A DNA stretch of 64,000 nucleotides from Streptomyces sp. CA-210063. GTDB taxonomy: Bacteria; Actinomycetota; Actinomycetes; Streptomycetales; Streptomycetaceae. Within the stretch, counting starts at the first letter, position 1. Each line of letters begins with the position of its first letter. Below, one piece after another: positions 3,101 through 20,717 of this stretch. A program made the translations under genes and the position numbers. The notes under the pieces were generated by a model. That model saw only the letters and a program-made list of their open reading frames with translations. It was not told the origin of the DNA and did not search any database. The stretch is taken from positions 8,680,001 through 8,744,000 of the forward strand of contig NZ_CP102512.1 in assembly GCF_024612015.1 (NCBI RefSeq). Direction: 5' to 3'.

Positions 3101-3460
3101 TCAGCCTCCCCAGATGTCATAGAGCCGCACCTGCAGCACGGCGAGCACCACACCGCCGGCCGCCACGGTCACGCTGCCCCAGCGGGTGCGCTCCGCCAGT
3201 GACATGAACCCGGTCACCGGGACACAGGCGAACGCCCCGAGGAGGTAGGAGACGAAGATCGTGGTCCCCTGCTCCGGCTTCTCCCCACGCGCCAACTGCA
3301 CGATCCCGACGACCAGTTGGACGAGAGCCAGTACCGACACCACGGCCATGCCGATGACGTGCCAGTCCTTGGTCGGCTGATCGCGGTACGCGGCCCAGCC
3401 GCACCAGGCGGCGAGCAGAAGCGCGGCGACGGCGGTCGTCACCGTCAGGGCAACAAGCAT
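3101..3460 (-). CDS. four-helix membrane protein of unknown function
   Basis: The 119-residue product has an N-terminal hydrophobic helix (about 2-24), three further helices and short polar loops, so it is an integral membrane protein. No motif identifies a function. It is the first gene of a pair: its TGA at 3101-3103 lies one base from the GTG of the next membrane protein, and the ribosome site of that gene is inside this coding end. The two may form a complex. Its upstream side (3461-3937) is shared with metN, transcribed the other way, so both could respond to signals in that 480-base region. Confidence 0.75.
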   Translation of the reverse strand: MLVALTVTTAVAALLLAAWCGWAAYRDQPTKDWHVIGMAVVSVLALVQLVVGIVQLARGEKPEQGTTIFVSYLLGAFACVPVTGFMSLAERTRWGSVTVAAGGVVLAVLQVRLYDIWGG

Positions 3461-3666
3461 GCCGCGACCCTATTACGGCCCAAAACCCCGCCGCGCTCGG
3501 CCCCGGGCCAGGAAACCCACAGACCGCGCATCGTGGCCTTGGCCACAGCGGCGGGTGCCCACATGGTGGACGCCACCTCTTTGGACCTGCGGATACGACC
3601 TCGTAGGGCGTCCGCTTCGCGGACAGCCCTCTCTCGCCTGCGCCATACATCTGCTTTACTGATCTC

Positions 3667-3753
3667 ATGACCACGACGAGCTGCCGCACCCTTGCGACCG
3701 AGGCGACCATGACGCCCGGTGCTCGTTGTATGTGTCGAATGTGCGCTTTCTAG
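3667..3753 (+). CDS. possible Met/Cys-rich leader peptide upstream of metN
   Basis: A 28-codon frame, too short for ordinary gene calling, ends in the residues RCMCRMCAF: three Cys and two Met codons within the last eight sense codons, then TAG. It lies 185 bases before metN. An internal ATG at 3709 preceded by GAGG would give a 14-residue peptide with the same tail; the ATG at 3667 has no ribosome site but follows a TTTACT hexamer (3655-3660) at leaderless spacing. A hairpin (3781-3824) follows the stop. Cys-rich leader ORFs that attenuate sulfur genes are known in mycobacteria; linking this one to metNIQ control is my inference. Confidence 0.45.
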   Translation: MTTTSCRTLATEATMTPGARCMCRMCAF

Positions 3754-3780
3754 AGGGCCCAAGCACCACCCCTGAGCCAT

Positions 3781-3824
3781 GGGGGCCCCTCCCGCTCGAG
3801 CGAAGCCGAGAGTGGGGGAGCCCC
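3781..3824 (+). repeat. GC-rich hairpin between leader ORF and metN
   Basis: Arms 3781-3797 and 3808-3824 pair imperfectly (GGGGCCCCTCCCGCTC-type left arm, GAGTGGGGGAGCCCC right arm) around a CGAAG-containing loop. From memory, similar C-rich palindromes are scattered in Streptomyces genomes. Its place between a Met/Cys-rich leader frame and metN also makes it a candidate attenuator stem. No T-run follows. Confidence 0.5.
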
Positions 3825-3937
3825 GAAGCGAGCCGCCGTGGCATGTCCGTACGCCGTATGCCGTACGTGACCGAGTTGCCCGCGCACCGACTTCCCTCCC
3901 GTACCAGGGCACACCCACGCCCTCGTACTCGACAGTG

Positions 3938-4993
3938 ATGGAAACCCCAGTGATCACCACATCGGGCCTGACCAAGGTCTACCGAGGTCGCGGCCGAGAG
4001 ACGACCGCTCTCGACGGCGTCGATCTGCACGTACGCGAGGGCGAGGTGTACGGCGTGATCGGCCAGTCCGGCGCCGGCAAGTCCTCGCTGATCCGCTGTG
4101 TCAACCTCCTCGAACGCCCCACCTCCGGAACCGTGACCGTGGCGGGCCAGGACCTGACCGCCCTGGCCGGCCGAGGCCCCCGTGCCGGCCGTGAGCTGCG
4201 CCGGGCGCGCAGCCGCATCGGCATGGTCTTCCAGCACTTCAACCTGGTCTCCTCCCGCACGGTCCAGGACAACGTCGAGCTGCCGCTCGAAATCCTCGGC
4301 AGGTCGGGCAGGGAACGCTCCCGCAAGGCCCTGGAACTGCTGGACCTCGTCGGTCTCGCCGACAAGGCGAAGGCCTACCCGGCCCAGCTCTCCGGCGGCC
4401 AGAAGCAGCGCGTCGGCATCGCCCGCGCGCTGGCCGGAGACCCGAAGGTGCTCCTCTCCGACGAGGCCACCAGCGCCCTCGACCCGGAGACCACCCGCTC
4501 GATACTCCAGCTGCTGCGCGACCTGAACCGGCAGCTGGGACTGACCGTCCTGCTCATCACGCACGAGATGGACGTCGTCAAGACGATCTGCGACTCGGCC
4601 GCCCTCATGGAGAAGGGCCGCATCGTGGAGTCCGGCACGGTCGGCGAACTACTCGCCACCCCTGGCTCCCAACTGGCCCCCGCCCTCTTCCCGGTGGGCG
4701 GCGAGGCATCCGGCGACGACCGCACCGTCCTTGACGTCACCTTCCAGGGCGAGGCGGCGACCCAGCCGGTCATCTCGCAGCTGTCCCGCACGTACAACAT
4801 CGACATCTCGATCCTCGGCGCCGCCATCGACACCGTCGGCGGCCTCCAGATCGGCCGGATGCGCATCGAACTGCCCGGCCGCTACGAGGAGAACGTGGTC
4901 CCCATCGGCTTCCTGCGCGAGCAGGGCCTGCGGATCGACGTGGTCGGCCCCGAAGGCCGGGCGTCCGCACCGGTGAAGGAAGGTGCCAAGTGA
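3938..4993 (+). CDS. metN: methionine ABC transporter ATP-binding protein
   Basis: This 351-residue ATPase powers import of methionine (likely D/L-Met) by the MetNIQ transporter on the inner membrane face. Walker A GQSGAGKS is at 42-49, the ABC signature LSGGQ and Walker B VLLSDEATSALD follow, then the switch H in ITHEMD. The C-terminal 80 residues form the ferredoxin-like NIL domain that in this family binds methionine and inhibits transport. ATG 3938 is chosen since the family starts just before the TSGLTKVYRG strand; GTG 3935 and GTG 3950 are alternatives. metI overlaps its stop codon, and metQ follows. Confidence 0.93.
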   Translation: METPVITTSGLTKVYRGRGRETTALDGVDLHVREGEVYGVIGQSGAGKSSLIRCVNLLERPTSGTVTVAGQDLTALAGRGPRAGRELRRARSRIGMVFQHFNLVSSRTVQDNVELPLEILGRSGRERSRKALELLDLVGLADKAKAYPAQLSGGQKQRVGIARALAGDPKVLLSDEATSALDPETTRSILQLLRDLNRQLGLTVLLITHEMDVVKTICDSAALMEKGRIVESGTVGELLATPGSQLAPALFPVGGEASGDDRTVLDVTFQGEAATQPVISQLSRTYNIDISILGAAIDTVGGLQIGRMRIELPGRYEENVVPIGFLREQGLRIDVVGPEGRASAPVKEGAK

Positions 4994-5721
4994 CCTGGAC
5001 CGAGATGCGGCCCCTGCTCGAACAGGCCTGTTGGGACACCTTCTACATGGTCGGCTGGTCCACCCTCATCGCGGTCGTCGGCGGTCTCCCGCTCGGCGTC
5101 CTGCTCGTCCTCACGGACCGGGGCGGCCTGCTGCGGAACGTCCTCGCCAACAAGGTCATCGGGCAGATCGTGAACATCGCCCGCTCGATGCCCTTCATCA
5201 TCCTGATGGTCGCGCTGATGGGCTTCACCCGCTGGGTCACCGGCTCGACCATCGGCCGCGAGGCGGCCATCGTGCCGCTCGCCATCGGCGCCATCCCGTT
5301 CTTCGCGCGCCTCGTCGAGACGGCCGTCCGCGAGGTGGACCACGGGCTCGTCGAGGCCGTGCAGGCCATGGGCGGCAACACCTGGACCGTCGTCCGCAAG
5401 GTCCTCGTCCCGGAGTCCCTGCCCTCGCTGATCTCCTCCGCCACCACGACCGTCGTCGCCCTCATCGGCTACTCGGCCATGGCTGGCACGGTCGGCGCGG
5501 GCGGCCTCGGCGACATCGCCATCCGCTACGGCTACCAGCGCTTCGAGACCGAACTGATGTGGATCACCGTGGCCGTCCTCGCGGTCGTCATCTCCGTCAT
5601 CCAGTTCGCCGGCGACTACGCCGCCCACGCCCTCCACCGGCGCGGCGGCCACTCCGGATCCGCGCCGAGGCTCCGGCTGCTGAAGGCCAGGCCCACCGCG
5701 ACCGAGGTCACCAAGGCCTAG
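4990..5721 (+). CDS. metI: methionine ABC transporter permease
   Basis: The 243-residue permease has about five hydrophobic helices and the EAA-type coupling loop EAVQAMGGNTWTVV, which docks to MetN. Its GTG (4990) overlaps the metN TGA in a GTGA arrangement, and GAAGGAAGG lies 7 bases upstream, so the two are translationally coupled. Length and helix layout match MetI; the extended, charged C-terminus (RLRLLKARPTATEVTKA) is the only departure from the E. coli protein. It works with the lipoprotein MetQ encoded 75 bases downstream. Confidence 0.92.
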   Translation: MTWTEMRPLLEQACWDTFYMVGWSTLIAVVGGLPLGVLLVLTDRGGLLRNVLANKVIGQIVNIARSMPFIILMVALMGFTRWVTGSTIGREAAIVPLAIGAIPFFARLVETAVREVDHGLVEAVQAMGGNTWTVVRKVLVPESLPSLISSATTTVVALIGYSAMAGTVGAGGLGDIAIRYGYQRFETELMWITVAVLAVVISVIQFAGDYAAHALHRRGGHSGSAPRLRLLKARPTATEVTKA

Positions 5722-5796: not shown

Positions 5797-6624
5797 GTGC
5801 GTAACGCCGCCAAACTCGCCACCGCCGTACTCGCAGCCGGAGCCCTCACCCTCGGGCTCACCGCCTGCGGGGCGGGAGGCGAATCCGCCTCCGACACGAG
5901 CGGCCCGCTGATCGTCGCCGCCAGCCCGACCCCGCACGCCGAGATCCTCACCTTCGTCAAGGACAACCTGGCGAAGGACGCGGGCCTCGACCTGGAGGTC
6001 AGGGAGTTCACCGACTACGTCACGCCGAACACGGCGACCGAGGACGGGTCCGTGGGCGCCAACTACTTCCAGAACCAGCCGTACCTGGACGACTTCAACA
6101 AGAAGCGGGGCACCCACATCGCACCCGTCGTCACGGTCCACCTGGAGCCGCTCGGCCTCTACTCCAAGAAGGTCAAGAGCGCGGACGCCCTGAAGAGCGG
6201 TGCCACCATCGCCGTCCCGAACGACAGCGTGAACGAGGCGCGTGCCCTGAAGCTCCTCGACGCGGGCGGGATCATCACCCTGAAGGACGGCGTGGGCAAC
6301 GAGGCGACCCCCGCCGACATCACGAAGAACCCGAAGAACCTCAAGTTCAAGGAGCTGGAGGCGGCTCAGACCCCACGCTCCCTGGACGACGTGGACGCCG
6401 CGGTCGTCAACGGCAACTACGCCATCGAGGCGGACCTCTCGCCCGCCGAGGACGCCCTGGTCCTGGAGTCCGCGAAGGACAACCCGTACGGCAACTTCCT
6501 CGCCGTCAAGGAGGGTGACGAGGACGACCCGCGCGTCGAGAAGCTCGCCAAGCTCCTCACCTCCGCCGAGGTCAGGAAGTTCATCGAGGACAAGTACGAC
6601 GGCTCGGTGATCCCCTCCTTCTGA
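5797..6624 (+). CDS. metQ: methionine-binding lipoprotein
   Basis: A 275-residue NlpA-family solute-binding lipoprotein that delivers methionine to MetNI. The signal peptide ends in the lipobox LTAC with C24 as the lipidation site. The mature part shows typical family stretches: ASPTPHAEIL, the FTDYV strand, NYFQNQPYLDDF, and PNDSVNEARALKLL. GTG 5797 follows AGGAAAGG. The 75-base spacer after metI holds no obvious terminator, so it is probably the third gene of the operon. Substrate rests on family and context; closely related NlpA proteins can bind other amino acids. Confidence 0.9.
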   Translation: MRNAAKLATAVLAAGALTLGLTACGAGGESASDTSGPLIVAASPTPHAEILTFVKDNLAKDAGLDLEVREFTDYVTPNTATEDGSVGANYFQNQPYLDDFNKKRGTHIAPVVTVHLEPLGLYSKKVKSADALKSGATIAVPNDSVNEARALKLLDAGGIITLKDGVGNEATPADITKNPKNLKFKELEAAQTPRSLDDVDAAVVNGNYAIEADLSPAEDALVLESAKDNPYGNFLAVKEGDEDDPRVEKLAKLLTSAEVRKFIEDKYDGSVIPSF

Positions 6625-20231: not shown

Positions 20232-20240
20232 CGGTGTGTG

Positions 20241-20312
20241 TGGACGATACTGGGATTGAACCAGTGACCTCTTCCGTGTCAGGGAAGCGCTCTCCCGCTG
20301 AGCTAATCGTCC
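20241..20312 (-). tRNA. tRNA-Val (anticodon GAC)
   Basis: Cloverleaf is complete: acceptor GGACGAT/ATCGTCC, D arm AGCTCAGCGGGAGAGC, anticodon loop CTGACAC giving GAC, and T arm with GGTTCAATCCC. Discriminator A; no encoded CCA. Last of the five-tRNA cluster; identical to the gene at 20459. Confidence 0.95.
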
Positions 20313-20346
20313 TGGGGATCACAACCCGTGGGCTGTGGATCTCGCG

Positions 20347-20418
20347 TGCGCGATACTGGGATTGAACCAGTGACCTCTTCCGTGTCAGGGAAGCGCTCTC
20401 CCGCTGAGCTAATCGCGC
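20347..20418 (-). tRNA. tRNA-Val (anticodon GAC), variant acceptor stem
   Basis: Same body as its two neighbours, but the acceptor stem is GCGCGAT/ATCGCGC instead of GGACGAT/ATCGTCC, with both sides changed in a compensatory way. Anticodon GAC, discriminator A, no encoded CCA. Confidence 0.95.
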
Positions 20419-20458
20419 GGGTCGAAGCCTCGCGGCTCCAGAAGCCCTGAGGCCTCAG

Positions 20459-20530
20459 TGGACGATACTGGGATTGAACCAGTGACCTCTTCCGTGTCAG
20501 GGAAGCGCTCTCCCGCTGAGCTAATCGTCC
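20459..20530 (-). tRNA. tRNA-Val (anticodon GAC)
   Basis: Identical in sequence to the gene at 20241-20312: acceptor GGACGAT, anticodon GAC, discriminator A. It follows tRNA-Cys by one or two bases, so it must be processed from a common transcript. Confidence 0.95.
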
Positions 20531-20531
20531 T

Positions 20532-20605
20532 TGGAGGTGGAGACGGGATTTGAACCCGTGTAGACGGCTTTGCAGGCCGTTGCCTCGCCTCTCGGCCACT
20601 CCACC
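20532..20605 (-). tRNA. tRNA-Cys (anticodon GCA), CCA encoded
   Basis: Acceptor GGTGGAG/CTCCACC, anticodon loop CTGCAAA giving GCA, T arm GGGTTCAAATCCC. The discriminator is U (20535) and the CCA end is encoded (20532-20534), unlike the valine tRNAs after it. Confidence 0.95.
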
Positions 20606-20644
20606 AGGAGTGCGGGGTTCGGGAAGATCCCCCACTTTCCTGCG

Positions 20645-20717
20645 AGCGGACGACCAGGTTCGAACTGGCGACCTCAACCTTGGCAAGGTTGCGCTCTACC
20701 AACTGAGCTACGTCCGC
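20645..20717 (-). tRNA. tRNA-Gly (anticodon GCC)
   Basis: Acceptor GCGGACG/CGTCCGC, D arm AGCTCAGTTGGTAGAGC, anticodon loop TTGCCAA giving GCC, T arm CCAGTTCGAACCTGG, discriminator U. It is the first gene of the Gly-Cys-Val-Val-Val cluster. Confidence 0.95.

Follow-up and report, generated by a model that had tools for sequence, protein, structure and literature searches.

A rare CGA codon beside the last methionine codon is a conserved feature of metL, the Met/Cys-rich leader of metNIQ in Streptomycetaceae, and of a similar leader in Microbacteriaceae

A short leader open reading frame (ORF), metL, rich in Met and Cys codons, precedes the genes of the methionine importer MetNIQ in Streptomyces sp. 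CA-210063, and its most constrained codon is a rare arginine codon, CGA, placed directly before the last Met codon. This arrangement is consistent with a ribosome-stalling attenuator that would respond to Met-tRNA, with Cys-tRNA secondary, and that would act without an intrinsic terminator, perhaps through Rho. We infer the sensed tRNA, the stall site, and the involvement of Rho, and assign this reading a probability of about 0.6. The window analyzed here is the whole stretch of 64,000 nucleotides of contig NZ_CP102512.1 (positions 8,680,001 to 8,744,000).

The frame that the earlier note had described—Met/Cys-rich and ending RCMCRMCAF before TAG—was confirmed exactly, with 28 codons before TAG and the translation MTTTSCRTLATEATMTPGARCMCRMCAF. 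Family searches also upheld its identification of the downstream genes as metNIQ.

3655..3660, + strand: −10-like element TTTACT, present in 108/110 genus loci and 38/40 other family loci
3667..3753, + strand: leader ORF metL, in frame in 110/110 genus loci and also read in 40/40 further family loci
3736..3744, + strand: core codons CGA-AUG-UGC (Arg24-Met25-Cys26), from codon counts across three leader sets
3925..3949, + strand: conserved pre-metN stretch, here GTACTCGACAGTGATGGAAACCCCA, holding the probable ribosome-binding site
3950..4993, + strand: metN (PF00005 and NIL domain PF09383), probably starting at GTG; ATG 3938 lies in the same open frame
4990..5721, + strand: metI, permease (PF00528)
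5797..6624, + strand: metQ, NlpA lipoprotein (PF03180)

The NCBIfam model TIGR02314 (MetN) is the best match for the window metN, yet the match lies below the cut-off (380.4 vs. 499.7 bits). The distance of about 185 bases given for the gap to metN holds if translation begins at ATG 3938, 184 bases from the leader stop; this ATG is replaced by ACG in most relatives, so the start is more probably GTG 3950 in the same frame. The TTTACT element lies 6 nt before the leader ATG at 3667, a spacing that would fit a leaderless transcript in the window, and the two remaining genus loci have TTTAAT at the same position. A simple sigma-70 scan of the window region returned no promoter, and no −35 element was identified in Streptomyces. 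Elsewhere in the window, positions 20240–20717 of the minus strand hold a tRNA cluster (Gly-Cys-Val-Val-Val), the Cys tRNA (GCA) of which would read the leader Cys codons.

A MetN search returned a match in 172 of 179 Streptomyces genomes, and the upstream region was examined in 110 of those 172 (30 loci from the search itself and 80 retrieved afterwards). The leader ORF precedes metN at all 110 loci, 109 identified by regular expression and one (L042) read by hand from sequence; a broken frame, which would have spoken against the leader, was found neither here nor in the 40 further family loci described below. The 110 leaders comprise 83 distinct peptides and fall into six length classes, all multiples of three, whereas the distance from the stop to the loop of the downstream hairpin is spread 61/23/22 over the three frames (106 loci in which the loop was found). 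Because the ORF frame is always kept while the downstream spacing is mixed, it is very likely that the genus leader is translated and that its frame is kept by selection. The stop codon is TAG in 67 leaders and TGA in 43; an indel separates the two forms and still leaves GAGGGCC behind.

The expectation that the Met and Cys codons would be kept by synonymous change proved correct for the last Met, which is ATG in 109/109 aligned genus leaders, but not for the last Cys, which is Cys in 85 and Arg in 24 (with L042, Arg in 25 of 110). Elsewhere in the terminal cluster the expectation held in large part, though no position was fixed: among the 109 aligned leaders, the first Cys is retained in 102 (Arg in seven), the Met that follows it in 100 (five Leu, three Thr, one Ser), and the second Cys in 105. 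The codon under most constraint is one that the earlier note did not single out. The Arg codon before the last Met is CGA in 108/109 aligned leaders (109/110 with L042), the exception being CGC in L055; across 30 MetN genes (first 999 nt of each), CGA accounts for 11 of 849 Arg codons (1.3%). Whereas the Cys codons, though frequent, vary between leaders, CGA-AUG is fixed. Exactly three residues follow the last Met in 110/110 genus leaders. Six leaders (L044, L045, L170, L173, L175, and L186) carry duplicated M-C-R or C-R-M-C units, and CGA precedes only the last AUG in L044, L045, L173, and L175, and both AUG codons in L170 and L186.

The same leader is present across the rest of the Streptomycetaceae. 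An RNA model (R1) was built from 38 genus leaders that contain CGA; it may therefore favor CGA matches, and the search is not blind to that codon. At E 0.01, R1 recovered 70 of the 121 family genomes, from 13 of 17 genera, and gave a single strong match in the genome that contains the window. A model-free pattern (TTTACT, ATG, CGAATGYGY) matched 77 of the 121 genomes, in 12 of 17 genera, and its reversed form matched none. Forty further loci, from 37 of the 42 R1-matched genomes of other genera plus three divergent genus members, all show an in-frame leader followed by metN, and all 40 leaders end in CGA-AUG-UGY or CGA-AUG-CGC, so that CGA is again invariant (40/40). Three residues follow the last Met in 27 of these leaders and two in 13. 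Leaders of genus g14 (MTATTTCTPTGAAPAGERCMCCRMCHC, then the stop) have an unrelated first half and yet end in the same way, which marks the end as the core of the element.

A class-wide pattern search over 296 genomes gave 31 with a match: 28 belong to the genus and three to one other family. Named relatives of the protein downstream in this second family belong to Microbacteriaceae. When 150 genomes of that family were searched, 29 matches were found in 19 of 85 genera, and none with the reversed pattern. All 30 loci read carry an ORF of the type MTDNSRTLTSFEAPGDAGMMMPGRDAVMCCRMCR before the stop; a visual alignment matches it to the Streptomyces leader at RTL, EA, M-PG-R, and MC-RMC. The Microbacteriaceae leader (MMM..CCRMC) precedes a winged-helix regulator, not metN; the only Pfam domain in this protein is Trans_reg_C, and the neighborhood of the regulator, read by eye at two loci, contains proC-like, cation efflux-like, and upp-like genes and no Met/Cys gene. 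With the Arg codon left free, a regular expression recovered the leader in 71 of 80 named Microbacteriaceae loci (the other nine gave no match to that expression), and the Arg codon before the last Met is CGA in 71/71, compared with 46 of 1600 Arg codons (2.9%) in the winged-helix ORFs. In a parsed set of 66 leaders, for which CGAATG was required and which thus gives no re-test of CGA, Cys is encoded before CGA by TGT in 40 leaders and by TGC in 26, and after the last AUG by TGT in 51 and TGC in 15. These flanking synonymous sites vary and CGA does not, which points to constraint on the CGA codon itself.

Spacing at the end of the Microbacteriaceae leaders is also regular: two residues follow the last Met in 66/66 parsed leaders and in 27 of the 30 loci read, the remainder having four (L219, L220) or ending RMCM (L235). 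These leaders are richer in Met, with a mean of 4.74 non-start Met and an MMM run in 26/30 read and 56/66 parsed leaders. Most leaders of loci L246–L325 lie ~150–400 nt upstream of position 5001. In some (e.g., L246) the MMM codons fall within a short palindrome, GGCATGATGATGCC, so the Met run may double as a small hairpin. By their resemblance, the Streptomycetaceae and Microbacteriaceae leaders may share common descent.

Searches in other groups added no further family. R1 had no match in 15 genomes from two other families of the order, and three class-wide pattern matches in families beyond the genus and Microbacteriaceae were set aside as chance on the basis of the matched sequence. A phylum-wide pattern matched 13 of 346 genomes; five were Microbacteriaceae, and the eight others were likewise judged chance from the matched sequence. 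Ten Streptomyces in the phylum-wide draw went unmatched, as the pattern needs UGY within a set distance before CGA as well as UGY after AUG. Reversed-pattern controls matched one genome in a class-wide search, one in the phylum-wide search, and none in the other pattern searches; all of these patterns contain CGAATG and are no test of CGA conservation. NCBIfam returned no family for five leader peptides. Rfam matched nothing besides tRNAs in the whole window at gathering score and nothing in 3580–3960 up to E 5; known RNA families, among them SAM riboswitches, T-box, and Streptomyces-metH/metK RNAs, accordingly had no Rfam match at the leader.

In the attenuation mechanism that we favor, RNA polymerase would start at the leader ATG and a ribosome would follow at once. 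A shortage of Met-tRNA, or secondarily of Cys-tRNA, would cause this ribosome to stall in the last codons, mainly while the P site holds the rare CGA and the A site the AUG, three codons before the end. The CGA would be read by an inosine-A pair, a poor pair that should leave decoding of the AUG behind it highly dependent on how much Met-tRNA is available. When an inosine-A pair occupies the P site, the codon that follows is decoded less readily. In most bacteria tRNA-Arg(ICG) reads CGU, CGC, and CGA (PMC3711424), and in yeast CGA-CGA pairs are inhibitory (PMC6301793). The stalled ribosome would then alter the RNA behind the stop (GGGC and a hairpin, H5, in most relatives), allowing polymerase to reach metN; a ribosome that finishes the leader would instead leave a C-rich untranslated gap exposed to termination, most simply by Rho. 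Met-tRNA is put first in this scheme because the Met codons are best kept, metNIQ imports methionine, and Met codons are more numerous in the second family. The invariance of the last Met, the replaceability of the last Cys, and the constraint on CGA similarly suggest that Met sensing is more likely than Cys sensing. Against this reading are the Microbacteriaceae leaders, which precede a regulator without a Met/Cys neighbor (two loci), and leaders L219 and L220, in which the last Met is followed by four residues.

RNA structure was considered both within the ORF and behind it.

3673..3681, + strand: 5′ arm of stem H0, ACGACGAGC, from folds; proposed partner 3721–3729
3685..3696, + strand: small hairpin Ha inside the ORF, CGCA-(CCCU)-UGCG with the loop in parentheses, from folds; one sequence is changed on both sides, A-U to G-C
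3697..3720, + strand: hairpin H1 inside the ORF, ACCGaGGCG, loop, CGCCCGGU, from RNAalifold and folds; one A-U for G-C compensation, in L058
3721..3729, + strand: 3′ arm of stem H0, GCUCGUUGU, which covers the terminal cluster's first Cys codon
3755..3758, + strand: GGGC directly after the stop; GGGC or GGGU is present in 133/133 leaders with H5 and 9/17 without
3774..3821, + strand: palindromic dispersed genomic repeat, lying behind the leader ORF as an insertion; the genome has 39 more matches
3820..3832, + strand: H5 remnant GCCCCGAAGCGAG, from comparison with relatives; the 5′ arm CUCGC is lost

Stem H0 would join codons 3–5 to codons 19–21 of the window ORF, and its complementarity survives changes in L025, L064, and L095. 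Compared with random synonymous recodings, which used Streptomyces MetN codon use for all groups, the stem system is more stable in 8/10 Streptomyces leaders (mean z −2.08; the exceptions are L058 and L042). Mean z values in other groups were −2.66 (two leaders of g13/g16), −1.49 (five of g7), and −1.37 (six of g14); the eight Microbacteriaceae leaders tested had no detectable fold (mean z −0.5). In g14 (L180, L182–L185, L189, and G211-like genomes) a different hairpin, CACC-GGC..GCC-GGCA-GGUG, lies mid-ORF in place of the Streptomyces stems. Covariation support for the proposed stems is thin: over 38 sequences, 91.9% of cells are paired versus 91.8% after shuffling, and four pairs changed on both sides versus a mean of 2.2. 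Slid registers of the same stems pair only 29.5–43.1% of cells. RNAalifold on 110 leaders found H1; in its structure, the 5′ side of H5 takes the ORF end as its partner, which differs from the proposed stem model.

Hairpin H5, CUCGC-GCCCCGAA-GCGAG with GCCCCGAA as its loop, lies behind the stop, and its strict pattern occurs in 133 of 150 Streptomycetaceae leaders (L048 and L110 being counted as without H5 owing to single changes). Its association with GGGY has a Fisher p of 5e-9, uncorrected for relatedness of the leaders; one idea is that a pseudoknot between GGGY and the GCCC of the H5 loop would explain it. The H5 motif TCGCGCCCCGAAGCGA occurs in zero to two copies per genome among 16 genomes searched. 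Copies adjoin metN in G002, G003, G004, G006, G007, and G009, the six searched relatives with a metN position; G000 has one copy elsewhere, its metN copy being destroyed, and G001 has one copy and no MetN match. A regulon of H5 elements was rejected in view of the few copies per genome and their position beside metN in the six relatives.

The window itself (L009) lacks the strict H5 pattern, as does its nearest relative, L010. Here a repeat that, after scoring of 40 of 94 candidates, has 39 further matches of ~40 bp in the 10.86 Mb genome landed in the conserved regulatory hairpin and removed its 5′ arm. The hairpin behind the window ORF had been taken for part of the attenuator; that assignment is rejected, as the hairpin is the dispersed repeat, no intrinsic terminator is seen, and the hairpin conserved in relatives is disrupted at this locus. 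The region 3750–3955 folds no better than shuffles (z −0.78). The absence of H5 in the window and L010 implies that H5 is dispensable or that the repeat's own hairpin substitutes for it.

A search for the intrinsic terminator pattern in 3450–4000 returned no sites. The gap to metN averages 44.5% C and 28.8% G, with C exceeding G in 110/110 genus loci; however, C also exceeds G (39.8% vs. 34.3%) in the DNA from 400 to 60 nt upstream of the ORF, so the Rho signal is weak. Rho-dependent termination in the gap is a plausible guess, made by analogy with Cys leaders, for which Rho has likewise been suggested (PMC1262725). Immediately before metN, ACTCGACAG is found in 102/110 genus loci and only 16/40 other family loci. 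The conservation of GCACTCGACAGTGACGGAAAC at this position within the genus is striking, and long-range pairing, discussed below, failed as a reason for it; the stretch could possibly serve as an operator or an unusual ribosome-binding site.

Several other readings of the leader deserve comparison with Met-tRNA-responsive attenuation. The element might act through its peptide, a nascent chain ending RMCx(x) that stalls the ribosome at its own stop, perhaps with SAM or Met as ligand; stalling of the TnaC nascent chain with tryptophan would be an analog. The placement of RM[CR] within the last seven residues in 110/110 genus, 40/40 further family, and 66/66 Microbacteriaceae leaders agrees with an arrest peptide, as does the restriction of the last Cys position to Cys or Arg (85 and 24 of 109). 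We nonetheless regard it as unlikely: under a peptide code alone CGA should drift to CGC, CGG, or CGT, which it does not, and what follows the Cys is diverse (AF, AR, DC, HC, A, D, R, S). Alternatively, any slowdown at CGA-AUG, including that caused by antibiotics, might induce the downstream genes, making the leader a general sensor of translation stress in which Met/Cys content is incidental. Upstream ORFs that sense several ribosome-targeting antibiotics have been described (PMC12121999), and the position of the Microbacteriaceae leaders before a regulator rather than a Met gene would be in keeping with such a role; we judge it quite improbable, given that Met/Cys enrichment recurs in two families and that the Streptomycetaceae genes downstream encode a Met importer.

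The remaining two readings turn on RNA structure. In one, the ORF stems and H5 would form a metabolite-binding, riboswitch-like sensor and the ORF would only time its folding, which could account for stems that outperform synonymous recodings in most Streptomyces leaders tested and for an H5 loop kept in 133/150 leaders. Retention of the ORF frame in 110/110, the lack of an Rfam match even at E 5, the unrelated stem sequence in g14, the missing fold in Microbacteriaceae, and the loss of H5 from 17/150 leaders by the strict pattern (the window included) make this very unlikely. In the other, translation of metN would be attenuated by pairing of the leader end, UGUCGA-au-GUGCGC, with GCGCAC-UCGACA before the metN ribosome-binding site, as is proposed for the leuA Shine–Dalgarno sequence and Leu codon run in the LEU element. 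This pairing was promising at first, with up to 12 complementary pairs, recognized by eye in 7/9 minimum-energy folds, between two stretches that are both conserved in the genus. It was rejected on comparison with shuffles, on covariation, and on breadth: the duplex does not stand out from shuffled sequences (at the 55 of 110 loci tested, a median of 16% of them pair as well), one-sided changes go without compensation (e.g., L026, L058, L073, L117), and the partner occurs in 16/40 other family loci versus 40/40 for CGAAUG. We consider it the least credible of the readings, with hardly any chance of being correct.

More speculatively, and with doubts that outweigh our confidence, CGA-AUG-UGY near a stop might be a codon-level sensor of Met supply in its own right, with CGA read through inosine-A in the P site—the same device used by two actinobacterial families before different genes, a Met importer in one and a winged-helix regulator in the other. 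If so, the Microbacteriaceae winged-helix protein would be an unrecognized Met or sulfur regulator; in any case, the leader gives a starting point for working out what this conserved regulator, with only Trans_reg_C assigned, does. A rare codon fixed across a family beside the sensing codon would, if the interpretation is correct, indicate that codon choice, and not only amino-acid choice, tunes an attenuator. Leader-peptide control of methionine in Actinobacteria is little described, and the published metL is a single-strain annotation. That annotation is prior knowledge, and the kind of element is ordinary; new here are the CGA-AUG-UGY end with its retained rare CGA, the fixed spacing of the last AUG, the family-wide conservation, the RNA structure, and the second family.

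The suggestion that such a leader had gone undescribed does not stand. In S. lividans TK24, metL (SLIV_29928) is a leader before metNIQ that was reported as leaderless, with its termination described as unclear and no typical Rho-independent terminator found (PMC8079986). The peptide of genus locus L022 is identical, letter for letter, to the published S. lividans metL (PMC8079986), and the window belongs to the same alignment; with the same gene context and leader, the window ORF is its ortholog. In its passages on metL, that single-strain study stresses Met and Thr and does not comment there on Cys, conservation, CGA, stems, or a second family (PMC8079986). Within the open-access literature, only this paper describes a leader before Streptomyces metNIQ, and a fuller treatment may exist in subscription papers. 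An earlier survey from 2005 reported no conserved RNA structure before methionine operons (PMC1262725). The trp-type attenuators of Streptomyces share with metL the order of parts: signal codons in a leader ORF, followed by RNA structure and the operon (PMC1262725, PMC8079986). They differ from metL, for which no terminator hairpin with a U-run was found. The LEU element before leuA of Actinobacteria is a leader ORF that, like metL, allows potential pairing of its signal codons with sequence ahead of the next gene's start (PMC1262725), but the pairing tested for metL is not kept across the family. Unlike mycobacterial Cys leaders, metL has no run of Cys codons near its stop.

Cysteine-responsive polycysteine leaders have been reported in mycobacteria. 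The Cys-rich upstream ORFs before sulfur genes in mycobacteria and relatives are like metL in being short, with sulfur codons near the stop, no obvious terminator, and a suggested role for Rho, and they are leaderless, as reported for S. lividans metL (PMC4633059, PMC1262725, PMC8079986). They differ in that runs of Cys codons stand before cys genes (PMC4633059, PMC1262725), whereas metL has alternating Met and Cys codons, a last Cys that is replaceable, and a constant CGA-AUG.
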